DNA of 64,000 nucleotides, from positions 30,333,536-30,397,535 of the forward strand of contig CM037869.1 in assembly GCA_021292105.1 (NCBI GenBank), in the 5' to 3' direction. The notes under the pieces were generated by a model, which saw only the letters and a list, made by a program, of their open reading frames with translations, did no database searches and was not told where the DNA came from. Positions 7,066 to 55,390 of this stretch are shown in pieces. Origin of the DNA: Anadara kagoshimensis (taxonomy: Eukaryota > Mollusca > Bivalvia > Arcoida > Arcidae). The position numbers were made by a program, and so were the translations under genes. Numbering within the stretch: the first letter of the stretch is position 1; every line of letters starts with the position of its first letter.

Positions 7066-7150
7066 TGCCCCTAATTCAATATGTCCACTGCAGTGTTTAA
7101 CCAGTATTGAACTAGTTCCCCAGAATAAATGTACAGTCCCAAATATTCCT

Positions 7151-7339
7151 TTCATTCATTCATTCATTCATTCATTTATTCCATTGTTCATTCATTCATT
7201 CATTCAAGTGTTTCATCCATTCATTTATTCATTCAATTGTTCACTCATTCATTCATTCATTCAAGTGTTCCATTCATTCATTCAATTATTCATTCATTCA
7301 TTCATTCATTCATTCATTCATTCATTCATTCATTCATTA
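7151..7339 (+). repeat. (ATTC)n microsatellite
   Basis: An almost continuous ATTC/CATT tetranucleotide run with a few variant units. It encodes spurious HSFI repeats in all plus frames. Confidence 0.97.
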
Positions 7340-9740: not shown

Positions 9741-9920
9741 GTACGCTAAGACTGATAGAGCTCGTCTTCGTGATATCCATACCAGGATGTCCGGAGCATA
9801 CTTCCATAAGGGTATCTCCAGACTCCGAGCGGAAGAACTGTTATTGGCTGCGAGGGATGATGGGAGTTTCCTTGTCAGAGACAGTGAGACATTAAATGGT
9901 GCCTATGTGCTGTGTCTACT
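9741..9920 (+). CDS. INPPL1: Exon 1 of the coding model: start codon and first half of SH2
   Basis: A pyrimidine-rich AG acceptor ends at 9740 and a GTAAGT donor follows 9920. I place the start at ATG 9787-9789 (A at -3), giving MSGAYFHKG; vertebrate SHIPs also begin only a few to about 20 residues before SH2. 9741-9786 would then be 5' UTR. The frame stays open upstream to 9741, so a longer N-terminus from an unseen upstream exon is possible. FLVR (residues 28-31) is the phosphotyrosine pocket. Confidence 0.85.
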
Positions 9921-27900: not shown

Positions 27901-30900
27901 TGCCTATAAAGGTCACCTATGGGAACCAGTTAAAGTGGCCTTTGTGGACAGGTGGACTTTGTATACAGGTTCAAATATTATGAATGAAGAACAATTGGGA
28001 GGCATTTCTACTGGCCTTTATAAGTAGGTGACACTTATATAGAGGTGGCTTTTAACACAGGTTGGACTGTATGATGATCATGATATTTTTTATTTATTTG
28101 ATGTAGATGATGATGAGTTTGAAGATATAGCAAATTTTAGTCCAGTGACGTCACCTAATACAAAAGATGAGATATATGAGTCCCAGTCACAGAGGATACA
28201 AGTAGAGTTACTGAAAAACTTCTCCAAACTAGATCTGTCTAAGTATGTATAGTAATAGTACAAGGAATTTGTGTAAAACCATAAATTCACTTTTCAGAGA
28301 CATAAAAGATTGATTATCATGGACAAATTTGACCATGATTCAACATTCACTTTTGGGTCCAAAAAGGGTCCTTATCATAGATATACCTCTTTGTGGCAGA
28401 ATTTTCAATAAGCAGAAAAACATCAACAAATATTTATATGGCTTGTGTATCATGAGTCTATGTGTGAACCCTACTGCATGATACACAAAACTTTTTTTAT
28501 ATAGCAACATTATTGTGGTTCTTTAACCCTTTTCTATTTTTGATATACAGGCATTTAGGAACAGTCTTATAAATGCAGTTTTCCCATGATGCATAAGGCT
28601 GAAATAACCCTATGTTTACCATTACAATGGGGTTCACTGGTGATCACATGATCAATACCTCTCAATGTTTGTACAGAATGTTCTTGAAATTGATTACATC
28701 TCAAAGGCCTGGAATAATGTCATTTTTATGGAAAATCTTCAGCTGATGTGATTTCATATCCATTGGAAATATTAGTCCAGCATAAATGTTATGGTGTGTC
28801 AAAGGGTACACTGAAGCATACCATTGTACCTGTAGGATGTAGGATAGGAAGGGGTTAAGAAAAGATTAATAAATGTTAAAACAATAAAGGTTTCTTAAAC
28901 AAATTGTTCACATCACAAATGAACATTTGTTGCATTAATATTAGCTAATTATTAGCTAAGAAAATTTTGAATTCTATTTCAGTTTTGATGGAGAGTTTAA
29001 CAACTTGTTGAAGAATTATGTAGAGAAAGGTATTGAAAGGGATGTTTTAGCCTTGAAAAGAGGAGAGTCAATATTTCCAGATTTTCAGAGAATTCTAGAA
29101 GATTCTGCAAAAGGATTACAAAGGTACACTTCTTCTAATTGAATAAAAATTAATAATTTTATGTTGTAAAATAATGACTAGGTTTATATTTTATTATATA
29201 TTGCAATACGCAAACTGTTCAACAATAACATGACTGAAACAATTTGCATGTATTTACATATGTTTACACACACAAACTCTTTCCTTGAAATGACAGGTTT
29301 GTAAGTGCATTTGTACTTTGGTTGTTTGTGAAGTGTTGATCAGCTGTTCTTTCGAAGTCCCACTGAAATAAATATTTTTATGAACATGATGATTGAGAAT
29401 TATGTCATAATTCAAAGTGATGTAATGTGCAAACAAAACCGCAACATAAAATAGTATTGACATCATGGGTAGTGAAGTTAACATTGGAACAGCTGTGTTG
29501 ATTGGCTGTTCCTTCGAACACCCACTGGAATAAATATTTTTATGAATGAAAATTATGTCATATCATAATGCAAAATAACATTAAGTGCAAACAAAATCAC
29601 ATAATCATAAAAGTATTTACATCATGGGTATGAAGTTAAACATTGGAACAGCTTTGTTGATTGGCTGTTCCTTCGAACACCCACTGAAAGAAATATTTGT
29701 ATGAATGAAAATTGTGTCTTAATGCAAAATGACATAACATGCAAACAAAATCACCAAAGCATAAAATAGCATTGACATCATGGGTAGTGAAATGAAACAA
29801 TGGAACAGCTGTGTTGATTGGCTGTTCCTTCAAACACCCACTGAAATAAATATTTTTATAAACATGAAAAAAAGTGAAAATTATGTTATAATGCAAAGTA
29901 ATATAACATGTATAATGTGCAAACAAAAATCACTGACTTATGAAATAACATTGACATCATTGGTACTGAAATGAAACACTTGAAAAGCCGTGTTGATCAG
30001 CCATTCCTTCAAACACCCACTGAAATAAGTAATAAATTTATGAATGAAAATTATAAAAATCATAATGCAAAATGACATAATGTGCTAACAAAATCATAAA
30101 ATAATATTGACATCATGGGTAATGAAATGAAACAGTGAAGCAGCTGTGTATTATTATATAATAAAGCATAGTTTATAAATTAAAAAAAAAATAAAATCCC
30201 ATCATATTACCGGTTATCTCTCTGTTAGTTTAATCATAAAGCCGATTTGAATATATGGCATTGTTTAATATTATTTACAGGGAGTTAGACAAATTTATGA
30301 AGAAAGTATCTGTGTTTTGTGAATTACTCAATATTCCAGAAATTAATCAGACAAGGAAAGGTAGAAGAACATCTAAAGGGGTAAATATGTCTAATTGTAT
30401 TATCTGTCTCCAAAGCAAACACACCAATTCATGTTCAAATCACAATACAAAACACAAAGTAAAAACTTTTTTTACTGGCAAAGTTAGTTATCTATGTGCA
30501 TTTCCTCAAAGTAAGTGAGACCAGGTGTTCTGGTAGGGTAAGGGCCTCTTGTCTAGCTAGCTACATCAGAAGTGTGTAAAATCAACATTGAGAATGAAAA
30601 GAACATGGAACTATGGATTATTTACGTATCAAGGATAATTTTCAATTTTTGGATACAGAAAAAATAATATTTATCAACAATATTGTGATTACAGCCATTA
30701 AACTTTTTGAGGGCCCTGATAAGCCTTAATTGCAATATCCCTAATTCAACAATTTACATATTTGTATATGCAGCTTGTTCTGTGGGTCCCTGTAGTTTGA
30801 ACAAGCTCTGCCATTGCATATGTTAAAACAATAATACAATAGTGTAATACCACCTTGGTCTCCTTGGATACGAAGGTGATCCTATATATGATCTTTTAAG

Positions 30901-33900
30901 GAAATGATGTCATCTTTCATCGGTTGTGACTTGTGTGTATTGCCAACATTTTGACTGTTTTCCTATAGAGAAAAAAAAAGACATCCATGATTTTTTTGAG
31001 GGCCCTGATAACCCTAGGGTTGCAATATCCCTGGGTCAATAATTTATTTGTTAGCAGCTGGTTTTGTTGTATAAAGTTCCTGTATTGGGAACAAGCTCTA
31101 CCATAGCATATAAATTGTGAAACAAAAACACCACAAGCAACTTCAGGTTTGTTTCTTTTTACAGGGTAATGGTATACCGTCCATGTTAGAGAAAATGTCA
31201 GAATGTAGAGCTGATATCATTGTTCTGGAAAACAAGGTAAATTTATTACACTAGTATTTTATCAGGATTTTTATGAAAAATAAACTTATAACATTGCATT
31301 AAAATTAGAAAAAAATCATTGAAAAGACTGCTAGTAAATTTTACTGGCTATGCTCTGGGTAGAAAGACCTATATACATTCCTTAACTTATTTAAAAACAA
31401 AAAACTTTTTAATAGATCTTTGTGAAACAAACAAGTGTAGAGTAGATGTGCCATGGCTATTTATTTTGATCTTGCACATAGTTGGGAAAACACAAATTTC
31501 CCAGTTGGGATTCATTCCTGGGACACATTCCTGGGATCCCATTTCAGTCATATCTTGTTTTCATTGCTGTTAAACAAAATATTTTTCTGTCAACAGCAAT
31601 ATTTTCAAGAGACATGGCTATGTCTACAACCACATTATATATAACATATTAAGTTCATATTACAATGTCTAGTTGCTACTATAAAATCTGCCATTGTCAT
31701 GATTTCTGACTAGTTGAACATTCCTTCAAGACAACCAGACTTCAGTTTCACAATCAATTCTTAACTAAGATTTTCTTAAAATTAATTCTGGCAAATTTTG
31801 GCAACATTTTACTATAATACAAATTTTAACAAATTAAGAATATGGATCTTGTAAACATAATGTGATCTTCAAAATGACCACTTTAATTTCTTGATATCTA
31901 AAAAGAAAACAAAATTATAAAGGTATCAGATTTGTCAGATTGTGAGTTTAAGAGAGTTTTATTAAGGAATGAAATGTGAAATGGAGCCAGAGAGAAGCTT
32001 TATGGATTAGGTTCAACTAATACCAGTACATATATTTTCAGAGACATTGTATTTCATTTTTTACAGGTCCAAGAAACACTTCGCCTGTTTTCAGTATCAC
32101 AGTATGATTATATAGATATCAATGATGATGAAGATAACACACTTCCAGAAATCTCTTCACCATTTTTATCATCATTGTATGTCACACCACACATTCCAAG
32201 AAGTAATTTTGAGGTAAAAAAAGCTTAATTAGACTGTTTTCTTGATTTCCCTTGTTTGTCTTAAATTACTATTGAATAAAGGTAGTTTCCCTTAAGGAAA
32301 AATGACAAAATTTACCAATTTGAACACTTAAATTTCCAAAACAACAGTGAGAAGTTTAGCAAATCCTTACCCACATTTCAGATACTATCATAATATGACA
32401 ACTTTGCAATGAGGATCTTAGTCATATAGCCAGCAGGTCATGATGCAGTTTGCTATATTTCAAAACATGACATTTCACAGTTTTAAAGGCAGAAGGTAGT
32501 TTTTAACAAAATGTAACAAAATCACTGGATTGTACTTAAGCAGCAACAACTGGTCATGTTTCTCTACCAATCTGTTGCCTAGGCGGTCTAAACACGAGGC
32601 TACAGATCAAAGGGCCTTTCACTGCATAGGTTCTTATTCGACTTGGGACAAATCCTAGTATTAAAGAGTTTGTCAGTTTCTGCTGGTTTTCTTTCGGCAA
32701 AGGGTTCCCTCCACCATCCCAGAACTGACCACCTTGACTGGGACCTGAACACTCATCTCATATATAATATTTTGCATAATATTTTTGTATTGCCACACTC
32801 CACTCCATATCCTCAAATAGATTTAAAATACAGTGAAACTAGTGAAACTCAGATACAGCCGAACCTCTCTTAAAGGCCACCTCTATATAAGGGCCATCTG
32901 TTTATAAAGGCCATTACAATTTTATCCCCATTGCTCTTTATTCATGTTATTTTAACCTGTATATAAGAGCCATCTGTCCACAAAAACCACTTTTACTGGT
33001 TTCCTTTGGGTGGCCTTTATAGATGAGTTTGGCTGTAATTTGACAGTGACATGAGGTATATGACTACAATGTAAATTTGACATAGTGCATTTAAAGTGTT
33101 CAGATTTAAATGAACCAGAAAAAAAATTAAAATTCAGTTTTAATATTTTCTTTTTTCTTTCATCATGTTCATGAACTAAATTGTCATTACATGTGATGTT
33201 TTAATGGACATAAAGCATTTAGAGTGTTCAGTTTTAAATATACCAGAAAAAAAAATTAATATTCAGTTCTTATATTTTCTTTCTTCATTCTTGAACTAAA
33301 TTGTCTTAACATTTGTTTTTTTAACATTTATTACACTGACAGGTGAAGTTATTAAAGCATGGTAAAACAGCTATGAAGATAACATTATCTATAGATATAC
33401 AGGCTGGTAAATTGTTTGCTGTAAAACCATCTAAAGAATCACTGGATTCTAAAAGTGTCTTCACACCAGATAGAAGTAAGTCATTGTATACTGTGTAACT
33501 AAAAATATTTGCAGGTAGAAACTTTCACTTTTTAAAATTCACAAATGTGATTGTGTGTACTTACTTTCACAATTAACTAGCTGGTAGGTAAGCCCATTTG
33601 TATTTTTTAATATGTAGAAAACTTAACAGTGTACTTATTTTTGCTGTTGAAACTTGACAGTGAAAACTTCAAATATCAATACACTGTGAATATTTTTCGT
33701 TATACAGTATTATATTCTTTGATGAAAAATATACATTGTGATTTTTACATTTGCTTATACCATGATTGTTAATTCCAGCATTTGTTTTGCTTGTTATGTA
33801 AAATGAAAAATTTCCCTTCTCCTGTCACTGGAATTTGAATCTTAGTTCATTTGTAATGTGAACACACTACCTTTTCGCCTACAATTATCATGATTATATT

Positions 33901-34359
33901 GTAAGTGAAACAGTATACTGGGTAGTAAGGACTCTTGACTATACATAATACATTATTACTAAACCTGTTTCAATTTTGCAGTTCTAGATGGCCGCTTCCT
34001 TATCAGTAGTGTTCAAACTATACTATGTACCTATATAGCTAAATAACCATTTGAACACTTGTCAGCTATGAATTACCACTGAAGTTTCTTACCACAACAT
34101 GATTTCTGAACTTAAAACTGCAGTGTTTATAGTTGTAGGGAGGGGGGGGGCTGAGCTAGTCGTGGTATTGTTGTGTTGTATATAATATATATAATAGAGT
34201 GATTTACTGCCAGACTTTCTGGTCTGCATCATTAAGCCTTGTGGTAGAACGCTCGCTTTTTACCGGGGTGGACCAGGTTGAATCCTCAGCTGGGGCACTT
34301 AGTGAGGAAGTGTTTTTAGCTCACCTGAGCCTTTTCTGATCACAATTTGTCCGTTGTCT

Positions 34360-34407
<48 letters not shown>

Positions 34408-37400
34408 GTAAACTTTTACATTTTCATCTTCTTCTCACGAACCACTGGGCAGATTTCAACGAGACTTGGTCAGATGCATGTCTTGGTCGGTGCAATTCAA
34501 ATTTGTTCGTGGTGTTGCCATGGCTACCATAACTAGGTCAAGGTGACCTAGGGGTGCAAAAATCTTAAAAAATCTTCTTCTCCGAAAGTATTGATTAGAG
34601 AAAAAATCTGATGTGATATTTGGCTTCTCTAGGGTCTTTAGCCTATAGTTTGTTCATTTTGTGAAATTCGGACAAAAAATAGGTTACGCGTTTTTGCGTT
34701 TAATTTTGAAAAAATCGTAAAATAGCTTCAAATTGTTATAACTTGACTATTTGGCCAGATAATGACATGGGGTTTTCAGTTTTGACATCTTCTTGTTAGT
34801 ATCTTCAAATTGAGGTCAAGGTCAATTATGAAGGTCGTGACCTAATTTTTTTTACCTCTGATTATAATTATTATCTCGAAAACTATAAACTTTTTGTATA
34901 GGCATGTATATTAGAATGTTGTAGGTATTGATACAACAATCATTTTGGTGTATAGAAAAAGGTCATGGGTTCAAAGGTCAAGGTCACAGATGTAAAACAA
35001 TACCAAAATGGTTACTTATCTCGAAAACTATAAACTTTTTGTATAGGCATTTATATTAGAATGTTGTAGGTATTGATACAACGATCATTTTGATATATAG
35101 AAAAAGGTCATGGGTTCAAAGGTCAAGGTCACAGATGCGAAACAATACTGAAATGTTTAATTATCTCGAAAACTATAAACTTTTTGTATAGGCATGTATG
35201 TTAGAATGCTGTAGGTATTGATACAACGATCATTTTGATGTACAGAAAGAGGTCATGGGTTCAAAGGTCAAGGTCACAGATGCGAAACAATACGGAAATG
35301 TTTAATTATCTCGAAAACTATAAACTTTTTGTATAGGCATGTATATTAGAATGTTGTAGGTATTGATACAACGATCATTTTGATGTATAGAAAAAGGTCA
35401 TGGGTTCAAAGGTCAAGGTCACAGATGCGAGACAATACCGAAATGGTTAATTATCTCGAAAACTATAAACTTTTTGTATAGGCATGTATATTAGAATGTT
35501 GTAGGTATTGATACAACGATCATTTTGATGTATAGAAAAAGGTCATGGGTTCAAAGGTCAAGGTCACAGATGCGAATCAATACCGAAATGGTTAATTATC
35601 TCGAAAACTATAAACTTTTTGTATAGGCATGTATATTAGAATGTTGTAGGTATTGATACAATGATCATTTTGATGTATAGAAAAAGGTCATGGGTTCAAA
35701 GGTCAAGGTCACAGATGCGAATCAATACCGAAATGGTTAATTATCTCGAAAACTATAAACTTTTTGTATAGGCATGTATATTAGAATGTTGTAGGTATTG
35801 ATACAACGATCATTTTGATGTATAGAAAAAGGTCATGGGTTCAAAGGTCAAGGTCACAGATGCGAGACAATACCGAAATGGTTAATTATCTCGAAAACTA
35901 TAAACTTTTTGTATAGGCATGTATATTAGAATGTTGTAGGTATTGATACAACGATCATTTTGATGTATAGAAAAAGGTCATGGGTTCAAAGGTCAAGGTC
36001 ACAGATGCGAGACAATACCGAAATGGTTAATTATCTCGAAAACTATAAACTTTTTGTATAGGCATGTATATTAGAATGTTGTAGGTATTGATACAATGAT
36101 CATTTTGATGTATAGAAAAAGGTCATGGGTTCAAAGGTCAAGGTCACAGATGCGAATCAATACCGAAATGGTTAATTATCTCGAAAACTATAAACTTTTT
36201 GTATAGGCATGTATATTAGAATGTTGTAGGTATTGATACAACGATCATTTTGATGTATAGAAAAAGGTCATGGGTTCAAAGGTCAAGGTCACAGATGCGA
36301 GACAATACCGAAATGGTTAATTATCTCGAAAACTATAAACTTTTTGTATAGGCATGTATATTAGAATGTTGTAGGTATTGATACAACGATCATTTTGATG
36401 TATAGAAAAAGGTCATGGGTTCAAAGGTCAAGGTCACAGATGCGAATCAATACCGAAATGGTTAATTATCTCGAAAACTATAAACTTTTTGTATAGGCAT
36501 GTATATTAGAATGTTGTAGGTATTGATACAATGATCATTTTGATGTATAGAAAAAGGTCATGGGTTCAAAGGTCAAGGTCACAGATGCGAATCAATACCG
36601 AAATGGTTAATTATCTCGAAAACTATAAACTTTTTGTATAGGCATGTATATTAGAATGTTGTAGGTATTGATACAATGATCATTTTGAGGTATAGAAAAG
36701 GTCATGGGTTCAAAGGTCAAGGTCACAGATGCGAAAACAATACTGAAATGGTTAATTATCTTGAAAACTATAAAAGTTTTGTATAGGCATGTATATTAGA
36801 ATGTTGTAGGTATTGATGCAATGATCACTTTGATGTAAAGAAAAAATTCATTGGGGTTTAGTATTTATGTTTTCTTTAAATCTATCAGCTAGCCATTAGT
36901 TATCAGGTGAGCGTATAAGGCCCATGGGCCTCTTGTTTTCTGGTGTTTTCATTGCTCCTGTTACATAATTAATTAATGTCTTTTCTGTTTCTTAACTGCA
37001 CAGTTAATTAGATATAAATTCACTTATGTTTTCAGTTTTACAGCTTGTTAAGAGTACAAAGGACATGAGTCGACTTGATGTGATAATAAACAATAACAAA
37101 AAATATACTTACTCCTTTGGTAATGTACATACTAGAGAAAACTTCTGTCAACAGATCATGCAGATGAAGAATCTACACTCTGCCGGGGATAATGTGGACC
37201 AGATCTCTGTATTCATAGGAACCTGGAATATGGGTAAGTTTACTGTTTCTTTGTAAATTTTAAATCTGCTGGTGACATTATGGACCAAATTTTGATATTC
37301 ATAGGAACTTGGAATGATGGGTAAATTTATTTTGTGCAACCATTTCTTTTCTTTGTAAATTTGATTGGACTGGAGTGGAATGGAGTGAAGTAATGAAGTT

Positions 37401-40400
37401 TTATGCCCCAGTCAGGGTTCTTTCACTTATATTGAGATGATCAGTTCAGGGATTGTGCAAAAAGCCAGAGTGCCTGGAGAAATCCTTCAGCAAGCGAAAT
37501 GACAAACTTTCTTACACTTCTTTATAAATTTGAGATTGTTTAATATATAAGTCTGTACCTACTAGTATATTCTGCTGCAGACACTTAGGCAATTGACGTA
37601 TTGCCGTTTATGTCTTTTATTTTCCAAAACTGGCCACCATCACAGTACCAAAGCATCATAGCAACTAATGATGTACTAGCATCAGTGATGTCATTAAATG
37701 ACACGATTTAGTCCGAGTTTTAATTCTTTTGTGTGTAATTCAAGCATGATGGGCCTTTGTCGCAACATTTTGGGCATGGCCAGCAATACATCAATTATAT
37801 TGGGAATGTGAAATATGGACAAATTCAAAACAAAACCATGTATATTAGTATCCATTATCTAGGAAAAATTTTTATTTGAAATATAAAAAAAAACATGTTA
37901 TATGTATCTAGTTAGGGAAAGGATCAAAAACCTTATTTTGATAAAACTAATATTGCTTGCTCTTCTTATACAAATTACTGTAAATGTGGTAATTTTGGCA
38001 ATTTTCTTAATGATAATGTCAGTGAATGTAGCTAAATTATATTCACCTTCAAATTAAATATGATTATAGTGCACAAGGGGATCCATTAGATTTTTAGAAA
38101 TATGGTAATTAAAGTCCACATGATGAACACAATTGACACTAAAATTCATACGTGTTAAAACTATTGTTTAAAGTATAGGATATAATTTGTTTTACATGTT
38201 TTATGTATCTCACTTTCTTCAATATTTATGAATAAAATTCACATTATGTACTGCCTCTTTGATAGCTCAGTTGGAAAAGTGTTCGCTCTGTAAGTGGAAG
38301 ACTTGAAAGTGGAAGGTTGTGGGTTTCATCCCTGGCCAGGTCTGACCAAGACTTGAAAGTGGGTAGTGACTGTTCTTTTGCCAAGCACTTGGCATTACGA
38401 AATGAAAGTCACAGTTCTTTTGGATAGGAACTTAAAATTAACTGGCTTGATGAAGAACTCTGCTGTATAATGCCATCAGCACGACACACGGGCAAAATTT
38501 CTGCACCATTATCTATAGCTGTCAACAGCTCGATATAATTGAAATATTCTTGACTGGAATGTTAAACACCATTACTCAACTCACATTATGTACAATATGT
38601 CTAACTCCTATCTTGTATAACCTTTAGGTGACAGTTTACCTCATAATTCCATTAATTCCTGGTTGAAGTGTTCTGGGTGTGGTAAGCCACGTGAGACAGA
38701 AATTCTGGGATGTCTACCACATGATCTGTATGTTGTCGGAACTCAGGAGAGTGCCATGACGGAGAAAGACTGGGTCAACTTTTTAAAAAATCATCTGAAA
38801 TCCTGTGTGATGGCTGACTTAGAAGTGGTAAGCATATATATGTTATTAAGACTTTAAGATATATGTAACTATTTAAAAATAAAATATATAAAGAATAATA
38901 GAATCCTACACCATTAACAGTGCAAGACAGAGATACCTTGGACCAGGATGAATATTGCCCTGTCAAGAACGCGAGCTTTAGCAAGTTTGCAGTATTGAAA
39001 AGATTCAACTGATACATGTGTATATATCTCTGACACAGCTATTGTTGCAGAATTCTTTTTTTCTCTCACTCATTTGTTACATAAAACACAGTTTTTAAAG
39101 AGATTTTTGTATCAAATGCTGTTTTTATGATATTATCCATTACTTCTAAAACCAGAAGGTTGGAACTTTTAATTAATGCCAACCCCTCAAATGTAACAGC
39201 AAAGTTGTTTGCCTCAAGAAAGATAAACATTTGGAATAAAATTTTGTAAAGAAGTTACCTAGTGTTTGGAAAAATAAAGTGATACCTGAACCTTGTACCT
39301 TTCCAGTACTGATAAACACACATACTTATTTAAGCTATACTCTATAAAAAGAAACATCCGTGAGAGAGAAATATTTGTGATTATTACGGTGACACTTGTA
39401 CCAAGAATAAGTCTTCTCAGCGAAAATTGTTTTTTCCTTTGGTTCACTTTTCCTACAGCCCGAAATGGGGAAAATTTTATACCATGAAATAATTTAAAAG
39501 GTCAACACTGCGAAAGTTATCTACTGTTAATGTTTCTTCTTACACAGTATCAGTATGCTGTTTTATACTTGTTGTATCAGCACATTTTAAGTTTAGTGCT
39601 AGCCTCCACATATGGAATTAGTTTTGTCACATATAAACTAATAGTAAACTTTAAACCCTTAATGTTTACATTCGAAAAATGTGATCTGCAAATTGTTTAT
39701 GATAGCAATCAAGTTTATAACATCTAATATACATGTAGTTTGTTTTTAAACAGGTTGAAGTTTGTACATTATGGGGGATAAGTCTCTTGCTGTTTTTGGC
39801 AGCAATCAAGTTTACAACATCTAGTATATTTTATATTTTAACAGGTTGAAGTTTGTACATTGTGGGGTATAAGGCTTGTGATACTCACCAAAAAACAATA
39901 TCAGCATAGTATTAGCAGAATACAAAGGTCTACAGTCCGAACAGGAATAGCTAATGCTTTAGGTAAATAATAAAACTTATCAGTCTACCATACAAGCAGG
40001 ATTGTGCATCTGACATTAAAATGACACCTGCTTATGTCACTCTGTAGCATGTGAATTATTACTTTTTAGGGTACATTGTCTCAACTGGCTTATAATCATA
40101 TTATTATTAGGAAATTTATTGATGTATAATCATGGTAATAGAAAACTCAGCTTTTCCCTGACCTTTGGGTGTGAAACTGCAGCTTCCACTATAGACAATG
40201 TGTGTACATAATTCTAAAACCAATCACAATATATACTGGTGAGTTGAAAAAATTGTGTCAAATTCACCTGAAATTTCCTGCAATACATCCCCATTTTGAA
40301 ACAAGAACAGAACAGAATCTTGTGAAATCTTGAGAGATTTCAACATGAATCATTTTGAATGGATTCTGGATTTTCCCCCAAGAAATATAGCAAAATAGAT

Positions 40401-43400
40401 TAGGATTAGTAAGGTTTTCAATCTGCTTTAGGCCTATGCTAAAATTAGAATAATAAACTTCTGTCACAATGGTCTGCTGCACTTTCCTTAAGTTCACCAT
40501 GTTCACACCGTCAGTCATATTATATGTCATAATTATGTACAATAATAGAAAAAACCTTACCATCTCTGTTTCATTGCAGGTGTTCATCTAGTTGGTAATT
40601 TGAAATTCAGTGTCTTCAAATACTGCATTTTGGCAAATTTACTGTCGTTGATGATTATGTTAGATTAAAGTTTAACATTTTACCATTCAGCAAGTATGCA
40701 GACCAAAAAGTTTCTCATGTCTAATAATTTATATTTTAATTATATTACAGGTAACAAGGGAGCAGTTGGTATCTCATTTTATTTTAGGGGGACATCATTT
40801 TGTTTTATAAATGCACATTTAACATCAGGTGATGAGAGAATTGAAAGGTATGTATGTGAACAATTATTTTTTAGTTGAAAATGAAAATGAAATATGTAAG
40901 GACCAATCAATATTGTAAATTGAGAACTTTTGTGTTTGTTTCATTTTTACATAAATTTGCAAGAGTAAGAAGACTTGAACTTAAAACTGCCATGAATATT
41001 TGATTTGGATTTAATTCACTTCTATTTTGCACCAAACATCATCCAATGATACAAAAATAAAATTATCCATATAAATGTATCTTGAATTACACGTTTCTCA
41101 AAAATTATTTAAAAGATCTTTATGAAACTTCACAGGAATAATCTTTGGGTGGTTTAGATTTGCCATTGGCTATTTGTACTTTGATTGTTCACATGTTTAA
41201 GAAAACATGAATTTCCCAGTTTGGTTGAGTTGAAGAGGGACACTTTTGAAATGACATCCAATTTTAGTTAAAGTTTACCAGTAATTGTATTTACATTGTT
41301 GTATTTTAGACGGAACCAGAATTACAGGGACATACTGAAGGGTTTATCTCTGGGACAGAAACACTTAGACTTATTTGGTATCACAAATCAGTTCCATCAT
41401 GTATTCTGGCTCGGAGATTTAAACTACAGAGTGGAAGATAAAATACAGGTATTATGATGATCAAACTTACTTACTTACTTACTTATTTCACTCAGTCTGT
41501 TTCAATCACTTCCAGTTGTAAGCATCCTCTATAGCGGCCTCTTCGAATTCTACATAGGTGTCTTTAGCATGCACTGAGACATGGGACCTCAGTTTTGAGT
41601 CTCATTCAAAAGACTATACTAGTATTTAGCTTTTTTACAGCTGTATTATGAGCAGAAGGTAAAAATCATCTCAGTTTTGCAAGTCCTGAGTGAGGTTTGA
41701 ACCCACAATCCTTGACTTCAAAAGACAGTGACACAAATATACCAGTTATGTTCAAATTACAGTCAGAACTGCCTTAAAGGTTACCTATTTAAGGGTCACT
41801 TGCTTTTAAAGACCAGTAAAATAATGTCCCAGTTGCTCTTTATTCATGTTACTTGAACCTGTATATAACAGCAATCAGTCCATAAAGGCCACTTGTATTG
41901 TTTCCCTTAGGTGGCCTTTACAGACAGGTTTGACTGTACAATTTTAAAATTCAAAGTAAAAACTTTAATAACTGACATATTTATTCAACACATGAACTTT
42001 CAACAGGAAAGTGATGATAGGAACTCTAGAAGGGTAAACACCTCAGTTTTTCTTGCTTAGTTAGCTACACCTGTCATCTGTGTATTCAAAATTAAAAATA
42101 AAAGGAACATGGGGCTATGGGATGTCAAATGTATCTGGGATAATTTTGGATACAGAGACATCATACTTATCAAAAATATTGTTATGATGACAGTTTATTT
42201 GCAATCAAAAACAAACATACCAATCCATGTCCAAACCAATATCCCAAAGTAAAAAATTGGAAATTTGGCTAAATGCAAGCACTTTCACTAGGGAGCTAAG
42301 TGATACCGGGAGCTCCAGAAGGGTAAGAACCTCATTTATCTCCTGCTTAGCTAGCTACACCTGTCCCATGTGAAATCACAATTGAGAATGCCAAGGAGCA
42401 TATAGAACTATAGGAACTTAAATATATATATAGCATGATTTTAGATACAGACATCCTCAAGGCATCATACTTATCAACAATATTGTGATGATGGCCAAAA
42501 ATTGTTTTGAAGGCCTTGATAAGCCTTACGGCTTGCAATATCCCTGAGTCCAACAATTTATTTGCAACTGATAAATCTGAGTTGGCTGAAGTTCATCTTT
42601 CCTGAAGACCGTTTTTCTTGAAACAGGTATCACTCAGCATGATAGATTTTTTAAAATAAACAATTATAGTGCTACCACACTGCATTTCTTGCTTGCATTT
42701 TTTATTGCAGAATTATTTGACAGGTTGGATTTTCACTTACAACTTATGAAATAAAAGAAATAAAACTCCTGTATAATTTTAACTGTATGTTTAAACATGT
42801 AATTTTGCCATGAAAATTTTTCGTAACTTTCCAACAAAAAATATGACAGATACATGTAAATGCTCTATACATGTCTCTGTGACCAAGTGGTCTAAAGCGT
42901 GCACTTACATATCACAGTGCCTCTCACCACCAGGGTTTGAATCCCAGTCGGGGCATATCCTAGTGTGAGAAAGTTTGTCAATTTGCTTTCTGTAGGTTAG
43001 TGGTTTTCTCTGGACACTCCAGTTTCCTCCACCATACATGATCTGACTACCTCGTTATAAGTCAAAGAATATTGACTGGGGAATAAAACATCACTACTAA
43101 TGATCCACTTCACTCTGTACATGTCTAATAAAATCATTAATTAAACTTATATTTTGTTATTTTTCAGACAATATTGACCAAGCTAACAGAGAAGGACATT
43201 CAGTATTTGTTGTCAAAAGACCAGCTCAAGAAGACACAGGGAGAGAAGAAAGGATTCTGTGGTTTTAGTAAGTTATCAAATTAATACTTATTTGTTTTTC
43301 TTTAATCTGTTTTTATAAATAGAATATGTCTTACCAAACATGAGAAGGGTTAGATTTGTTTTAGATATGTTTTTCTGATATAATTTCAGTCATATCGAGG

Positions 43401-46400
43401 TTGTCAGTTTTGGAATGTTGGAGGAAACCAGAGTACCTTCAGAACACCACTGACATTTTGTAATTAAAGTGTTAAATTTTCTCACACTAGGATTTGCCCA
43501 AGTGAAATTCATACCTATTAATGAGAGATTCTGGGATTAGTAAGCTTTTGCTTTACATCACACAGACACTGAGAACTCGGCTTGAACAAGATCGATTCTC
43601 ATCATTCAATGTTTAAATAAAAGTTGAAATTTCAAAGTTTATATTAAATGTTTTAATGGTCATTGGAAAAACAAAATGATGATATTGTTTTTAGTTGGTC
43701 AGATTTGCAGACTGGGGAGTTAACAATGCTGTGATACTGATACTGTATTTCCACAAATTCAGTGCACGTGGAAAATGCAAGAAAAAAGTTGTATTTTCCA
43801 ACAATCTTACAAAAAAATTGTCAAAACTTAATACAAAATATACTGACCTAATAGGAAAAAATATTTTTCATTCATGAAAAAGTGAACTTAATTCTGTACA
43901 TAGAGCAATATTTTAACTTTTTAACAAAACAACAAATAAGACTATGTCAAAATTATCCCTTCTGTACCTTCTTACTTGAAACAACTATAAACGTTATGTC
44001 ATAATTGGGATATTCATGATGATCACACCTAGAAAAAAAACGAACAACAATGACCTACCTGATCCTAAATATCCTGATGTAACTTTAAATGAGGCCCAAT
44101 TGGTGTATAAACTTGATCAAATTTTCAAATTGTTTGCAAAATTTCTCTATGTACAGGAGAACTGAACAATAATGTTTTTAATTAAAAATATAATTTAGTT
44201 AGGTCAGTGCATTTTAAATGCATTTTATTGATAGTTTAATGGAAACATTTACAATTAAGAGAAATAAATAATAAAAACCATGTGCACTCAATTCATGGAA
44301 ATACAGTAGCCGAGTATTGTATTTTTGTTTTAGATGAAGCAGAAATATCATTCATGCCAACATATAGACTACCTAGAAGTGAAGTGTGTTGGAGATATGA
44401 CTGGAAAAAAGTCAAGAAAACAGGAGTAAGTACACAAATAGAAATATAACTTTATGGAAGGAATTATACAACCAACCCAACCCTGCAAACTGCAATTTTC
44501 TATTCTGTGCTGACCAAAGCTTGCACAGAACTCGACCAGAAGACCTTAAGCTCTGCAATTACCCTAAATCCAATCCCTAAACTGGGATTAGGAATTTGTT
44601 TTCTTGTTTATGATAAAAAGTTATCTATAATCATGCAGTCTGTTTTATTTATTTATGTGACAGATTTTATATCTTTTTGAATATGTTTTAGTTTTGATTT
44701 GTTGTAAATTACAAATCTTCTACAATATCAAATCTATTCAGATTGCAAAACAAAAATTAAAAATCTGGGGAGAGATTTGGCGAACACTATGGACTGACAA
44801 GGATGGAAACCTAAGAACTAATTTATTACAGCCAGTTTCCTCATAAACGGCATATTTAAGAAAAATTAAACTGAAATTATGATGTGTATTTTATCCTGTA
44901 GGAGAGGATTAATGCTCCATCTTGGTGTGACAGAGTGTTATGGAGATCCTATCCTGGTACTTATATAGAGAATACAGCTTATGGTAAATATTTATATGAT
45001 ATTCAAATTTTAAGTTTTGGACTAAAGTCTGTAGAGAACTTTGTAAAACTTCTAGTTCTACCTCCACATGCTCTAGATTTCAACAATTTTAAAATTATTA
45101 GTAGCCAATTTTTTTGGAATTGTAAAAATATAGTCATTTTTAAAGTGCTTTTTTTAACAAATTAGTTAAAATACTGGTAGATTACCTTTTGAACGAAATT
45201 CTCAGAAATAAGTAGCTAATTGCAATTTGGCTACCTGGAACAGAAGCAAACTATAGCTACCTTTATGTTGCAAGCTAGGGCAAATTATTAACTTTTTCAC
45301 AATTCTTGTTGCAAGGTGCTTGTAAATTATTTAGTACATGAATCAGATTTTTTTCAATATTTCTTTTATTTTTGTTTTTACCTTCCCAGCAAGTTTTCAG
45401 TGTTGAATGGTGAATGATTATGGCAAGCAATTACCGTATCATTATTATATACAACTACTTATATGCATATGAACTAGGATGAAAAGTATGACAGTACATG
45501 TACCGTAATTAAAAACATTTGTACATGTATTTGATTTGCAAATTATTGAGATTTCTATAAGTTACTGTACATTCTTTTAAAATTTTCTGCAAGTTTTAAT
45601 CTTAAATTTGTTTTAACTTTATTTAGGTTGTGCCGAGAGTGTGTTAGGTAGTGACCACAGACCTGTGTTTGCGTCGTTTAACATTGGTATTACATCTGAT
45701 TTTGTAATGAACAGAGATTCTCTAATAGAGGCAGACTCACCTGTAAAAATTGTTTTCCAACAGGTAGAAGCTCAGGTGTGTATTAAAATTATAAAAAATC
45801 AATAATATTAATAATGATAACAGGTTACAACTGAAATGGATGTCATTTCAAAAGTGTCCTCAAAAGGCCAAACTGAGAAATCCATGTTTTCCCCAACCAT
45901 GTGAATGATCCAAATAGGAACAACCAATGGCACATCTACCTAATGTTTGACCCTGTGAAATTTTATTAAGATCTGTTAAAAAGTTTTCGAGAAAAGTTTT
46001 GGACTAAATGTCAATGGATGAAATTGAGAGTTTTAAACTGGTTTGAAACCTGTTATGTGAAAAAATGGAGAGTTTTATAACTGTGCATAGAACTGAAACT
46101 AGATTTAGTGAAAAAAAATATGCCCTTGGTTTTCGTTTAGTTAAATCAGCCACATTGAGTTTGATATCAGAATCTGAATTTGTCAGTTTTTTTCATTGTT
46201 TTACAGGTTAGAACTTGCTGTAAACAACATTTTCAGTTGGAATTCCATTCATCCTGTTTTTCAGGTAAGCAATATAAATTGTGTAAAATGTTTATATTTG
46301 GAGCTATATCAAACAGTTTCAATATCTGCAAGTTTAAATTACCATATGTTTTGAATAATGACAAAAACAATAATAATACTTTTGCAGTCTCTATAATTGG

Positions 46401-49400
46401 TATCTAATGTGAAAATTAGATTTCATGCTAGATATATTTTCATTGTCGAAAGTGAGCATTGAATGTTCTGAATATAACATGAAAAATGTAAATGCAAGGC
46501 AACCATTTCTACTGATATAGACTCTATATGGTTACAGATCATTTAGGTACTTATTTTACAATTAACAAAAAATTAAGCCTTAAAATCTCCTGAGTGAATT
46601 ACACAGGTGCACAAATTATATGGTATTCAGTATTCAATGTATAAATTTAATTGGTGGGGTCATCATGGCTCAAGTCTAAAAAAGGACCTTTTTTCAAAAT
46701 GGACCAACACAATAAAAAAATTATGACAATGTATTTGAACAGATCAGTATTAAGCCAATGAAAAAAAAAATCGAAAGTGACAGAATTAGATTTATTCCAA
46801 ACTCCAATAAGACCAAAAATATCTGTAGCATTGTACCTAAAACTTTTAAAATATTAATGATTCTATATTAGAATTATCTCTGCACAATATTAAATAGCAT
46901 TAAACGAAATATGATGATGGTGGTGATGATGATGATGTTATTTACTTAGATCACTAATGTATTCATTTTAAATTTTAGAGGTGATCACAAGCAAACCTAA
47001 CCATAAATTTGCTGAAAATAGAACAGGATTATACTGCTGCCCTATATGGACCAAACATTTATTAACTGAGGTAAGTAGAATTGATAATTATTTATAATGG
47101 TCTCTTTATCATATACATTTATATAGAGACAAATACAGTTAAACCTCAGTATAATGTCACACAATTACTGTAGCACCTTGATTATTTCCACATTATTTTA
47201 AACTCCAAATATCTTTTTCTTCTATGTTTTTCAATCCACTCCCTTAATTAAATTTGACTGAAAAGTGACAATGAATCAAGTTTTTATTGTATTTAAATTA
47301 ATCATAATGTTGATTAAAAATGTCATTAAAACATAGTAAATTACATATTAAAAAGAAAAACTTATTTCCAATCATGCTACTCATTTTACATTATATTTTA
47401 TTAATAATTAAATGTCATAAATTTGAACGCATAAAATTTTCAATTGAAGTTGTAAGTTTACAAATGATTTTTTTTTTATTCAGATACGACCATTATTTGG
47501 AGACCAGGAATTCCTTGAAGAACAACATATCTTAATAGCAGTTAGAACAAAAGATGGTGACCATGAATCTTATGGTAAGCTAATTATGACATAATATTTG
47601 CAATGATACTGATTCCTTTTATGAAACAACTTTTTAAAACAATCCCCATAACCTCATGGAGATACTCCTGCAGCATGACTGAGTTTGACCTCACAAACAC
47701 AATCTTTTTTCGAAGTGTCAACAGATGTGGGCGGAGCTTCACATGACTTGGCCAAGTTTGACATCACAAGCACAACCTTGGAAAGGATGAGAATAGCACA
47801 AATTCAACACAAAGCGTTTCGCACTTTATTAAATTTGTGCAATTCTCACCCTCTCCATAATTTCATGGTAGAACAAAAGTAAAATTTTATCTCATAAATG
47901 GCTAGTATCTATATTAAATGTTATTTTTTCAAATAATATAATTTTGCCTCAAAAACTTAGTTTAAGTGTGGTGTATAGGAATCACCATGTCTGTCTGTGC
48001 CCATGTTAAATCCTGTCCTCTCCATAATTTTCACATCTGTGAATGGATTTTGATCAAATTGGGCACAAATGTATACCAATATGAGGTGATGTTCCACATC
48101 TGCCATTTACATTTGTATGTCAAAGGTCAAGGTTAAAAGGTCAAATTTAAGATGGGGGCAGTATTCAGCTCTGAAGAGAAAAGTTCTAGTTTGTCCTCCT
48201 AATATTTATGTTCAGAGTTGGCTTTTTTGGTTAAGTCCATTTTTTTACTTTGCACAAGCAAGTTTTACCTTTCTGTGGCAATGAAAGATTCTTAAGAGTA
48301 AACCATAGAAAATATTCAGTTTTGTGAAAGTGATTTTGGTAAAGTTTTGACACCTAAACCACAGTTGAATATGTTTTAAAAATGTGATCAAATTTTCTTA
48401 AAATTGTAAAAGATGATATTTCAAAGTGAATACTATAAGTTCAAGAACATTACAAATCATTGTTAGGTTTTTAGCTCACCTGAGCCAAAGGCTCAGATGA
48501 GCTATTGCAATCTATCACCGTCCGTCGTCCGTCGTGCGTCGTGCGTCGTCCGTCGTCCGTCGTGTGTAAACTTTACATTTTAATCTTCTTCTCCAAAACT
48601 ACTGGGCCATATTTGATGAAACTTGGTGATTATCATGCCTGGGTAACAGCCTTTCAAAATTGTGTTCGGGGTTTGGCCACGCCCATCAAGATGGCCGCTG
48701 TTACTAAAAATAGCAAAAAGACAAAAAAATCTTCTTCTCTGAAACCAAAAGGTGCAGGCAAATTTTGATTGGATATTTGGATTCAGCATACCTAGGAACA
48801 TTAAAATTGTTTTTTCATGAAAATTAGACGAAAATAGGTTACGCGTTTTTTGTGTAAAATTACGTAATTTTTAAAATAAGACATTTATTGTTATAACTTC
48901 ATAACGACTGAAGATAATTGTATGGAGTTTTCACTGTTGATCTTGTCTTGCAATTTTCTTCCAATTGATGTCAAGGTCGAAGGTCAAGGTCATGTCCCAG
49001 TTTTTGACCTTTGATAAAAAATGCTATTTTTTTAACATTTCTTGTGATAATGGCGTAGGATTTTCAGTTATTTGTAGGAATTGACATGATGATCATTTTG
49101 ATACATAGATCAGGGTCATGGGTTCAAAGGTCAAGGTCACAGATATCCAAGAATACCAAAATAGTTAATTATCTGCAAAACTATGAATTTTTTGTATAGG
49201 CATGTATATCAGAATATTGTAGGTAATGGCACAATGGTCATTTTGATATATGAATAAGGTCATGGGTTCAAAGGTCAAGGTCGCAGATGTAAACAAGTAC
49301 TGAAATGGTTAATTATCTCAAAAACTATAAACTTTTTGTATAGGCATGTATATAGGAATATTGTAGGTATTGGCCTAATGATCATTTTGATATATGAATG

Positions 49401-52400
49401 AAGGTCATAGGTTCAAAGGTCAAGGTCATAGAATTGAACGAATACTTAAATGGTTAATTATCTCAAAAACTATAAACTTTTTGGATAGGCATGTATATTG
49501 GAATCTTGTAGATATTGGCCTAACAATTATTTTGATATATGAATGAAGGTCATAGGTTCAAAGGTCAAGGTCATAGATGCGAACGAATACTTAAATGGTT
49601 AATTATCTCAAAAACTATAAACTTTTTGTATAGGCATGTATATTGGAATATTGTAGGCATTTGCACAACAATCATTTTGATATATGAATGAAGTTCATAG
49701 GTTCAAAGGTCAAGGTCATAGATGCAAACGAATACTTAAATGGTTAATTATCTTAAAAACTATAAACTCTTTGTATAGGCATGTATATTGGAATATTGTA
49801 GGTATTGGCCTAATGCACATTTTAATATACAGATGTTTTAGCTGTTTATAAATAATATATTGTAGCTAGACTTTAAATATGTTATATATAGCATACTTAT
49901 ATAACAATTATTATAATTAATTTGCAAAAATACTTGCATATTATTGGCCCTTACTACTGAAAATTTTGATATTCTCTTTTATTAATGTCATTGACCATTG
50001 AACCTCTGCATAAGATATGTACTCTTCCTCAGGTGAGCGTTAAGGCCCATGGGCCTCTTGTTTATTATTCATTTTTAATCAAGATTTTGAACCACTTTTT
50101 CGTTGCTGTTTGGAAACACTGACAACTGACTGTATTTTCAATATTTGTAGGTGAATGTGTTGTACCTCTGAAAAATACATTTGATTTAATGCCACAGGAA
50201 TTTGAGTATCAGCTGCTGCACCAAGGGGAAGTAACTGGAAAATTAAAGTAAGTTTGACATGTTTGAAGCAAGTTTAATTTTATAGTGAATTAGAAACAGT
50301 ATCAGGAATAAAAAATTGAACCATAAGACCTTCATGCCTTTTTAGATATGACATTACACATATACAGTACACATTCCTTCCCTTCCGTAGTTTAGGGGGC
50401 TGGGGGCAACATGAGTGGTCTGATGTGCAAGCTAACAGATTTTAATCCTAATCATGCAGATTGTTGTGTATGTGAAAAAATATCAGTTTGCATTGGGAAT
50501 GATGATGGCTTTCTCCAAGCACTTCAGTTTCCTCCATTCCTTCATGTTTTTTTTTTCCAGACTTAATTGCAGTTTCTTCCACCACCATTACTTTCTTTGA
50601 TTGCATCGTTTAACTCAAATTTAACATGGCAGGCCATTTTAAACCAATAATTTAAAATTTTTAAAATTTTAATATTCCCATTTTGAGTTTATTCATTCTT
50701 GCCAGTGACTTGTTCATTTTGTTTTAATGAATTAACTACAATACTGTATAAGAAAAAACATCATCAGTAAGAAACGTTCATGGTTTGATCTTCTAAAATA
50801 TTGAGTGGTAAGAAATGTTCACGGTTTTGACCGTAGGAAGGGTGTACTAAGGGAAATAAAATATTTTCCCTGAGAAGATATATCCGCGGTACAGGAGTCA
50901 CCATGAAAATAGTGAATATTTTTTCTTTGCAAGTGTTTCTATTAAACAGTTTACCAGTATTAGAACTTGAGTGAAATATTTTGGTAATGCTGCATTCAGG
51001 ATTAACATGTCAAATTTAAATATTTATTTCAGAGGCCAAATGCATGTGTTATCAGGAAAACATCTTGCTGCTAGAAGAAACTCTAAAAAATCTTATGGTA
51101 AGATTATTTATTTTATATAATAAATATTACCTGAGATAACAACTATTTTATTGCATTTGCGTTAAATTAAAAAATGGTATTTTACGCCACATCAGGATTT
51201 TTGTCAATTAAATCAAGTTGGTCGGCTCTGAGATGGTGGAGGAAACTGGAGTGGGTCTATCCTCTAACAATATGGTTACCTGGAGAAAATCACTGACCTT
51301 CAGTAAGGGAACTGACAAACTTTCTCACATTTTAATATGTCCTCAGCGGGATTTGAACCTAGGCGGTGAGAGATGCTGTGTGACCTTTAGACCACTCGGC
51401 CATTGAGGCCCCCTATTATATAATAAATGTTACTGATGATGGTATGCAAAAGGTTTTGAGATAAAAGTGTGCAGTTTTATACCGATGTAAATAAATACAT
51501 ACAGTATTATATACATAGTGTGTATGTACAACCCACCGTATCAGATCGAGTCCTTTTTTTAATAGGGGTATCACTACCAGTCGCGCTTGTGCGACGAGTA
51601 GTGATACGGCTACTAAAAAAAGGATGAGACCTGATACAAAGGGTTGTACATACACACTGAGTATATGGTATTTTTATCTAACATTTCCAACTAGTTTATT
51701 CAATCTATTAAAAAAACAACACTTTATATGAAAAAATTATATTTTACCACAGAAAAACACTGAACTATATTATGAAATATGTTCTGTAGTAATTACATCA
51801 TTATTTACATTTGACAAATCGGAGATTCCCAAATGATGTCACAATGAGAAAGTGCACATGTACTTTACTGCCAATGTTGTATCACCACACTGTGGTGATA
51901 CAAGATTCTGTATCATACGTGTTCGATAAAACTTGTATAATACATTGGCGGTAAAGTGCACGTGCACATTCTCATTGTGACATCATTAGGGAGAATGTAG
52001 AACAAATATCATAACATAGTTCAGTGGTTTACTGTGGTAAAATGTAATTTTTCACATTAAGTATTGTTTTTTATTATTTTAAATAACCTAATTGGAAATG
52101 TTAGATAAAAATATTATATACACAGTGTGTAGGTACAACCCTTCATATCAGGTCTCGTCCTTTTTTTGTAGCTGTATAACTACTCGCGACGAGTAGTGAT
52201 ACGGCTACGAAAAAAGGAATCGACCTGATACTGAGGGTTGTACCTCCACACTATGTATATAATATGTATTTCTCAGAAGTTAACAACCTATCTCTAAGTT
52301 AAATACTCATACATTTGTAACCAAACTAATTTTGTACAGTTTAAAAGCATTATAAACTTGACAACTTTTGCCAGGTACTTAAATTTTTGTGCAAGATAAA

Positions 52401-54989: not shown

Positions 54990-55142
54990 CTAGTGGCACG
55001 GCAGCCACTAGATTATGTTTAATTATGACTAGTGGCACGGCAACCACTGGATTATGTTTAATTATGACTAGTGGCATGGCAACCACTGGATTATGTTTAA
55101 TTATGACTAGTGGCATGGCAACCACTGGATTATAGCCACTGT
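54987..55142 (+). repeat. 39-bp tandem repeat starting at the stop codon, four copies
   Basis: TGACTAGTGGCA(C/T)GGCAACC at 54987, 55026, 55065 and 55104. The first unit's TGA is the stop codon of the gene, so the array forms the start of the 3' UTR. Confidence 0.93.
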
Positions 55143-55184
55143 CATTGTCATTTCTATGTTTTGAACCTATAGAAAACTCCAATT

Positions 55185-55390
55185 GTAGAGACAGAATTAT
55201 CAACAGTCTGGGCCAGATAGATTTTAAATCATGACTAGTGGCATGGCAAACACTGGACTATGTTTAGATTGTCATCAGGGTCATTTCTATGTTTTGAACC
55301 ATAATAATAGATAGATGTTAAATTAAGACTGAACACCACAGCCTCTGCATTGTGTTTAGATCATCAGGGTCATTTCTATGTTTTGAATTT
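55185..55390 (+). pseudogene. Duplicated end of exon 26 in the 3' UTR
   Basis: 'GAGACAGAATTATCAACAGT', 'CTGGGCCAGATAGATTTTAA' and ATCATGACTAGTGGCATGGC repeat 54944-55004 (the last 14 or so codons, stop and first 39-bp unit). A weaker third copy follows ('GATAGATGTTAAATTAAGAC'), with 'GGTCATTTCTATGTTTTGAA' closing each unit. Confidence 0.9.

Follow-up and report, generated by a model that had tools for sequence, protein, structure and literature searches.

The closest described systems are the "mirages" of amphioxus, tandem copies that lie across an exon-intron boundary, at either the 5' or the 3' end of an exon, and leave the exon proper intact (PMC3087553; this paper and the others cited are drawn on in excerpt). 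Their units measure 10-72 bp in Adh3, 60 and 108 bp in PGBD5, and 150-160 bp in the globins. According to the excerpts, many of the copies retain AG or GT, regular splicing was reported from RT-PCR to be undisturbed by the repeats, and exon-end duplications are possibly general in cephalochordates. A tandem genomic duplication with intron gain has been described in potato RdRp (PMC4974935), and the creation of introns from AGGT-bearing duplications has been treated by Rogers 1989, Zhuo 2007, and Gao and Lynch 2009, as cited in the excerpts of PMC3087553 and PMC4974935. Our search of openly licensed literature, molluscs and bivalves included, gave no report of mollusc mirages among the matches listed, which is weak evidence of absence.

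The window, that is the whole 64-kb stretch of DNA analysed, holds a gene for a SHIP-type inositol polyphosphate 5-phosphatase (coding span 9787..54989, plus strand). The gene model has 26 exons spread over 45 kb, introns of at least 413 bp, and a CDS of 3336 bp for 1111 aa; the phases agree and the sole stop is terminal. The product matches PF00017, PF24150, PF22669, PF24147, and PF00536 of Pfam above cut-off and comprises SH2, two SHIP C2, 5-phosphatase, and SAM domains, and its residues 409-867 align collinearly to human SHIP2 (5okm, E 1.5e-130). The combination of SH2, SHIP-specific C2, and 5-phosphatase domains places it in the INPP5D/INPPL1 family, and the SAM domain is as in SHIP2. A search of the assembly found one full SHIP locus, and one scan of genome contigs returned no SHIP orthologue.

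Adjacent partial tandem copies are found at the donor end of exon 10, the acceptor ends of exons 12 and 25, and the stop end of exon 26:

37036..37233, plus strand: exon 10 of the exon model; of the two donor-end copies, this one is intact
37256..37329, plus strand: decayed intron 10 copy of the donor end of exon 10 (77% over 74 columns)
39694..39785, plus strand: upstream copy of the intron 11 end and exon 12 start (80% to 39791-39876)
39845..39962, plus strand: exon 12, placed by phase and ungapped alignment to SHIP2; the downstream acceptor is taken as used
53337..53433, plus strand: exon 25 copy A, exon start and intron end (94.8% to copy B)
53434..53529, plus strand: exon 25 copy B unit (B to C 93.5% over the core)
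53521..53733, plus strand: exon 25 of the exon model
54756..54989, plus strand: coding part of exon 26, with the SAM domain and the stop codon TGA (54987-54989)
54982..55133, plus strand: 39-bp VNTR of 3.9 copies, from the last codons into the 3' UTR (TRF, 96% matches)
55170..55266, plus strand: 3' UTR copy of the end of exon 26, stop codon included (88%, shift 245)
55309..55387, plus strand: further diverged partial copy of the exon 26 3' UTR unit (76% over 84 columns to 55215-55298)

The four copies, as asserted in the preliminary description, are real, with identities of 77-95% that lie beyond dinucleotide shuffles. Twenty block-wise shuffles of this kind gave no ungapped local match scoring at least 20, compared with 214 in the real sequence; thus, none of the four is a chance similarity. 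Off the exons, tblastn recovered the copies of exon 26 (E 2e-4), exon 10 (E 0.001, residues 403-424), and exon 12 (E 0.40), together with two chance-level matches (E 4.5 and 6.0), the exon 25 copy not being separated from its exon. K2P distances between copies are 0.05-0.37, with the proviso that array copies may be homogenised.

The exon 10 copy derives from 37170-37242 (identity rising to 80% in a 65-column core) and has one extra base immediately before the copied donor. In the exon 12 pair it is the downstream copy, 39791-39876, that carries the real acceptor; the first base of the copied acceptor is 39754. The units at exon 25 are 96-97 bp in size, with the copied acceptor and exon start at 53425-53481. 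The acceptor end was described as having two extra copies; this holds for the exon start, but the acceptor has only one, and no acceptor scoring at least 0 was found upstream of copy A in the splice-score scan. The source of the exon 26 copy is 54925-55021, and the VNTR sits between source and copy.

How does this arrangement compare with the known systems? Copies at exons 10, 12, and 25 run across a splice site and hold both exonic and intronic sequence, as amphioxus mirages do; exon 26 differs, the duplication there covering the stop codon and 3' UTR with no splice site inside. The real exons are intact and the extras lie in introns: the 1111-residue frame is open, and use of a copied site gives a stop. 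Unlike the amphioxus cases in the excerpts, the copies are in another animal, with three in one gene and one at a stop codon; at exons 10 and 12 the event left just two copies, 77-80% identical. As in potato RdRp, a duplication crosses an intron-exon boundary and carries 3' splice signals along, and the potato gene has a second, 83-bp duplication in one of its introns, which we count as a likeness (PMC4974935, excerpts); however, for SHIP the analysis predicts neither an intron nor an exon that would be credible as new. Introns made from AGGT duplications likewise involve an internal short tandem duplication within a gene, but none of the 25 SHIP introns shows similarity between donor and acceptor flanks that beats the best of 100 shuffles, and intron 24 ties.

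Are exon ends, or this gene, duplicated more often than chance would have it? A uniform scan of the 64 kb for non-simple tandem loci found 33, 23 in the gene and 10 outside it. Before counting, 62 low-complexity pairs were removed (in 7140-7338, 19558-19618, 19768-19861, and 34360-34409), part of the array at 7140-7336 remaining in the count. A short locus has a probability of about 0.16 of straddling an exon. Four of the 18 gene loci of at most 500 bp do so, with 2.91 expected (P 0.33), and four of all 23, with 5.32 expected; without intron 1 the short loci give 4 vs 2.36 (P 0.18), and over ten settings P is 0.22-0.33, so the claimed excess of exon ends is not borne out, the power being low enough for 18 short loci to be compatible with an excess of as much as roughly two-fold. 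Copied DNA takes in 4 of 52 exon ends (7.7%) and 18.4% of intron bases (6.1% for short loci). The 7% coding fraction, the yardstick of the preliminary description, was rejected because its target size is wrong: a locus must only overlap an exon edge, and the target is exons plus locus span.

The idea of a duplication-prone locus fares no better, since the density in the gene, 0.50 loci per kb, equals the 0.54 of the rest of the window, and its difference from the 0.38 per kb (105 loci) of 34 other stretches of the same genome, 278.4 kb in total, is not significant (P = 0.13). The preliminary description named equally frequent duplication of intron interiors as an outcome that would refute over-representation at exon ends, and the window count, 4 observed vs 2.9 expected, is of that kind. 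In the control, known exons are straddled by 5 short loci (6.7 expected) and by 9 of all loci (10.9 expected), where exons are profile matches and not gene models, unmatched exons are uncounted, and low-complexity pairs were likewise removed, their number uncounted. Exons with such copies make up 11 of 82 control matches and 4 of 26 in SHIP (Fisher P 0.75), or 8 of 79 (P 0.49) when three relic copies, judged by eye, are left out, although the choice of stretches holding several exon matches could favour exons with copies. The relics are two in L012 and one in L013, paralogues that share one array; the eight exons thus represent about seven events, and one is a copy of an entire exon. Neither the window nor the sampled genome shows a significant excess or lack of exon-end duplications relative to chance.

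Exon-end copies and arrays of the SHIP type are found in myosin and kinesin genes. Arrays in this genome run to as many as 14 identical donors or, at acceptors, 8 sites, with the real one counted in. Copied sites of other genes look equally strong and follow no evident plan.

The three spare splice sites of SHIP, at exons 10, 12, and 25, retain GT or AG. Scores are rough, coming from matrices of 25 sites each, all from this gene, in which the real donors of exons 14 and 25 score -0.1 and -1.9. With its own site left out, the copied donor GTAAAT after 37320 scores 7.3 vs 9.3 for the real donor of exon 10, and the copied acceptor of exon 12 scores 8.0 vs 9.8; no acceptor scoring at least 0 lies within 37160-37340. 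At exon 25 the copied and real acceptors differ by a single base across 23-base sites and score 3.8 and 3.4 when the matrix excludes the real site (10.1 and 10.0 in the scan with it inside). Use of the copied sites is predicted to end the protein after 430, 521, and 980 residues, the last for exon 25 and ahead of the SAM domain, and each predicted stop is more than 50 nt upstream of the last junction.

The arrangement looks like an ordinary case of mirages, that is splice-site-bearing repeats, at chance frequency. Very probably, short local tandem duplications accumulate genome-wide regardless of exons, those of SHIP being by-catch and their spare sites probably mostly silent. The genome would gather duplications whose periods range from about 30 to about 300 bp and whose copies number from two to many, with roughly 70-98% identity, at about 0.4-0.5 loci per kb and placed without detectable regard to exons. 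Since loci typically cover about 200 bp and 45 kb of gene hold 26 exons, some three exon ends would be expected to be caught; four are seen. The copy that remains attached to the body of the exon would be kept under selection, and the others, neutral as we infer, would stay behind in the intron or 3' UTR, where they would decay (exons 10 and 12) or remain alike by being young or homogenised (exons 25 and 26). The suggestion that duplications are tolerated because one copy is used may be right: it fits the anatomy, with one copy on the exon body and stops from copied sites, and the analogy of the amphioxus RT-PCR results.

What would keep the spare sites silent? With introns as long as these, 413 bp or more, the spliceosome may pair the sites nearest each other across the exon. 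Such exon definition favours the inner donor, whereas for acceptors it merely lowers the preference for the upstream site (PMC9225289, excerpts), a point against the copies at exons 12 and 25 being wholly silent. It would thus protect well against donor copies and more poorly against acceptor copies. Rare use of a spare site would give a premature stop, and the mis-spliced mRNA would presumably decay.

The same weakened preference would suit a regulatory role, in which exon 25 (and exon 12) makes deliberate use of its additional acceptor, and a shortened or NMD-targeted mRNA tunes the enzyme level or drops the SAM domain. The near-identity of the exon 25 acceptors and exon starts, and the predicted stop before SAM, point this way. 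Against it stand the planless copied sites of other genes and the report that amphioxus repeats of this kind, including one at an acceptor, leave regular splicing undisturbed (PMC3087553, excerpts); we consider deliberate use quite unlikely. A composite picture, in which about one exon in ten has splice-site-bearing end copies, so that the spliceosome must routinely choose between near-identical neighbours by position alone, while the spare acceptor of SHIP exon 25 escapes this rule and makes a regulated mRNA for a shortened, SAM-less protein, is unlikely. That exon ends or the SHIP gene are a preferred target, for example of transcription- or splicing-linked breaks, with the four copies a true cluster, is very unlikely: short loci in the window are somewhat above expectation (4 vs 2.4-2.9, and likewise in all ten settings), but the excess is not significant, it vanishes when all gene loci are taken (4 vs 5.3), the control is slightly under expectation, and densities in the gene and outside it are equal.

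Assembly of haplotype pieces in tandem is a highly improbable source. Arrays are prone to mis-assembly, as for one amphioxus gene in a draft genome (PMC3087553, excerpts), and this assembly has near-identical pairs of other genes 0.2-2 Mb apart; however, the copies of exons 10, 12, and 26 differ by 12-23%, too much for alleles, and only one full SHIP locus was found. Judging from the sequence, error is unlikely at these three exons, and conceivable in the copy number of the exon 25 units or the 39-bp VNTR. We give almost no credence to an intermediate of intron gain, in which a copied acceptor and a donor in the copied exon start would together create a small additional exon and an intron. The layout at exons 12 and 25 fits, with a copied acceptor end lying upstream of the real one (cf. 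excerpts of PMC4974935), but only one of six GT options at exon 12 is in frame and open (6 nt, donor score 2.8), as are three of twelve at exon 25 (6, 12, and 24 nt; 3.5, -2.7, and -7.0), and the best donors, after 39823 (4.9) and 53458 (5.4), shift the frame.

For SHIP itself the copies are an ordinary finding; taken as a sample, they provide a base rate. In the sampled parts of this genome, of an animal other than amphioxus, duplications of exon ends look common, as the figures of 8/79 exons (about seven events) and 4/26 in SHIP suggest. Natural arrays of near-identical splice sites lend themselves to testing the rules of exon definition and are a raw material from which new introns could arise. 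The spare acceptor of exon 25 merits attention for its near-identity to the real one.

A DNA search also returned short matches (22-60 columns, E <=0.01) of exons 9, 16, 18, 23, and 24 or their flanks, which belong to none of the four duplications; that of exon 9 is part of the neighbouring tandem locus 33079-33324.

Short tandem duplications are present at four exon ends of the SHIP gene, as the preliminary description had claimed for exons 10, 12, 25 and 26. The copies align at 77-95%, and shuffled sequence gives no repeat matches comparable to them. At exon 10, the last 64 bp and the first intron bases are copied once downstream (77-80% identity, with one base inserted), and at exon 12 the end of the intron and the start of the exon are copied once upstream (80% identity). 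Exon 25 has about two and a half copies of a 96-97-bp unit that likewise joins the end of the intron to the start of the exon (93.5-95% identity). The last codons of exon 26, its stop and the start of the 3' UTR are repeated 245 bp downstream (88% identity), and a 39-bp VNTR sits between the exon end and this copy. Two extra copies had been described at exon 25, and these stand, but they do not bring two spare acceptors: no acceptor with a score lies in front of copy A (53337-53433), thus exon 25 has one.

Do such duplications cluster at exon ends? The window was scanned for local repeats that are not simple sequence, with shifts of 30-500 bp and at most 150 bp separating the copies. Of the 33 tandem loci obtained, 23 lie inside the SHIP gene, a density of 0.50 per kb, and the other 10 amount to 0.54 per kb outside the gene. 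It had been argued that random duplications would mostly miss the exons of a gene that is 93% non-coding. This expectation fails, because a locus of about 200 bp straddles an exon as soon as it overlaps a single edge; in a gene of 26 exons, this gives each short locus a probability of 0.16. When the 18 short loci of the gene were placed at random, a mean of 2.9 straddled exons, and 33% of trials reached the observed four or more. For all 23 gene loci, four were observed against 5.3 expected; with intron 1 left out, the expectation is 2.4 (P 0.18). When score threshold and gap were varied in ten ways, P stayed within 0.22-0.33; the observed number exceeded the expected one every time and the events are few, so a modest excess at exon ends may still exist. 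Of the 52 exon ends, 4 fall in copied DNA; among intron bases the share is 18.4%, or 6.1% when only short loci are counted. This comparison of introns with exon boundaries does not support over-representation at SHIP exon ends.

The identical scan, which on a rerun again yielded 33 loci in the window, was applied to 34 control stretches of the same genome (278.4 kb), 30 picked for myosin or kinesin exon matches and four at arbitrary positions. These contain 105 tandem loci, or 0.38 per kb, a density that does not differ significantly from that of the window (P 0.13). At least 15 bp lie in tandem copies in 11 of 82 control exon matches, or in 8 of 79 when three judged to be relic copies themselves are set aside; the proportion is approximate, since these exons are known from profile matches, not from gene models, and match-rich stretches were preferred. 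The SHIP proportion, 4 of 26, is similar (Fisher P 0.75 and 0.49, respectively). Straddling in the controls amounts to 5 short loci against 6.7 expected, and 9 of all loci against 10.9. By eye, the control cases look the same as those of SHIP:

L003: donor-end copy
L007: acceptor-end copy
L011: donor-end array, 14 matching donors including the real site
L017: donor-end array, 4 donors including the real site
L031: donor-end array running to the end of the stretch, at least 9 donors including the real site
L012 5935-6719: acceptor-end array in a myosin gene, at least 8 acceptors including the real site
L013 4762-5607: acceptor-end array in a myosin gene, at least 5 acceptors including the real site

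L012 and L013 are paralogues (about 87-93% identity over aligned parts) whose arrays lie upstream of the same exon; this array is common to both, so the eight exons represent about seven events. One of these events is of another form: at L009 835-1231, a myosin P-loop exon has a diverged upstream copy (70%), seemingly of the whole exon, and the two may be alternative exons. Two points keep their interest: duplications bearing splice sites have a high base rate in the genome as sampled, and the way in which one of several near-identical splice sites is chosen can be put to the test.

Tandem repeats spanning an exon-intron boundary have been named "mirages" in amphioxus, where globin genes are described with units of about 150-160 bp at either exon end; units of BflGb6 are 81-100% identical, with 6 and 3 copies in two haplotypes, and RT-PCR is reported to suggest that regular splicing is undisturbed (PMC3087553). 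Similar cases are described elsewhere (PMC3902484). SHIP exons 10, 12 and 25 have the structure of mirages, whereas exon 26 does not. Literature searches limited to CC-licensed papers found no paper on mirages in molluscs. A boundary-spanning duplication in potato RdRp is described as able to produce a new intron (PMC4974935). The SHIP duplications do not pass as intron gains: only micro-exons (6-24 nt, with weak donors) would be open and in frame.

How might the spare sites be tolerated? A duplication across an exon edge always leaves one copy joined to the exon body, and this copy is the exon; the spare ends up in intron or UTR by plain geometry, with no need for selection. All three spare SHIP sites retain GT or AG. 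On a rough matrix built from the gene's other sites, copy and real site score 7.3 and 9.3 for the exon 10 donor, 8.0 and 9.8 for the exon 12 acceptor, and 3.8 and 3.4 for the exon 25 acceptor. Use of the spare site is predicted to end the protein after 430, 521 and 980 residues, respectively, and the 50-nt rule would make each mRNA a typical target of NMD. It is plausible that the duplications are tolerated because one copy is used. In L012, five upstream acceptors score 12.0 and the one adjoining the exon body 6.6; if the latter is used, the choice is not made by strength.

Under exon definition, the sites closest across the exon would be paired, leaving spare copies silent. For human genes whose flanking introns are long, such sites are reported to be favoured, and in a minigene with two identical donors the inner one was used exclusively; for acceptors, exon definition only made the upstream site less strongly preferred (PMC9225289). 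Given these results and the length of the SHIP introns (at least 413 bp), exon definition would be a good explanation for the presumed silence of the exon 10 donor copy and a weaker one for that of the exon 12 and 25 acceptor copies. The nearly identical acceptor pair makes exon 25 the best place to seek mis-splicing or regulated splicing.

The SHIP model, assembled from open frames, splice signals and phase, has 26 exons (9787-54989, + strand). Coding sequence makes up 3336 bp (7.4%) of the 45.2-kb span and forms a single open reading frame of 1111 residues. Pfam finds SH2, both SHIP-specific C2, 5-phosphatase and C-terminal SAM domains, and human SHIP2 (5okm) aligns end to end with residues 409-867 (E 1.5e-130); the predicted product is a SHIP2-like inositol 5-phosphatase. 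The tetrapeptide YVNV is encoded twice within exon 25 (53521-53733); YxN is a Grb2 SH2-binding motif. One full SHIP locus was found in the 1.115-Gb assembly, in which the window's contig measures 59 Mb. A relic of exon 11 lies on another contig (L036, G000:C16:38413700-38414500), with 66% protein identity and one stop; its DNA aligns with window 38651-38730 at 81% over 83 columns.

Other repeats in the window are:

34870-36854, 49072-49829 and 56801-57518: three arrays of one 145-bp satellite family, two of them within introns (9 and 21) and one downstream of the SHIP gene; the single units compared are 83-87% identical
14302-15304 and 20461-21068: minisatellites of equal 31-bp period (32 copies, 96%; 18 copies, 83%), with no mutual match between pieces of about 300 bp
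26582-26715 and 27893-28020: dispersed repeat, 77% identical between these two and present near 12.0 and 59.4 kb as well; translated frames that resemble one another around VKPVYK recur at several sites

Elsewhere in the assembly, many profile matches occur in pairs on one contig, separated by 0.2-2 Mb and with scores that are equal or almost so, which suggests unpurged haplotypes or recent large duplications. Examples are:

C3:56906439 and 57272284
C7:24336582 and 25243447
C15:7334392 and 8008909
C8:28542253 and 28773166

Nineteen kinase-profile matches of equal score, with frames mostly of 280 aa, lie within about 83 kb at C2:37381619-37464610, with weaker kinase-profile matches among and around them.
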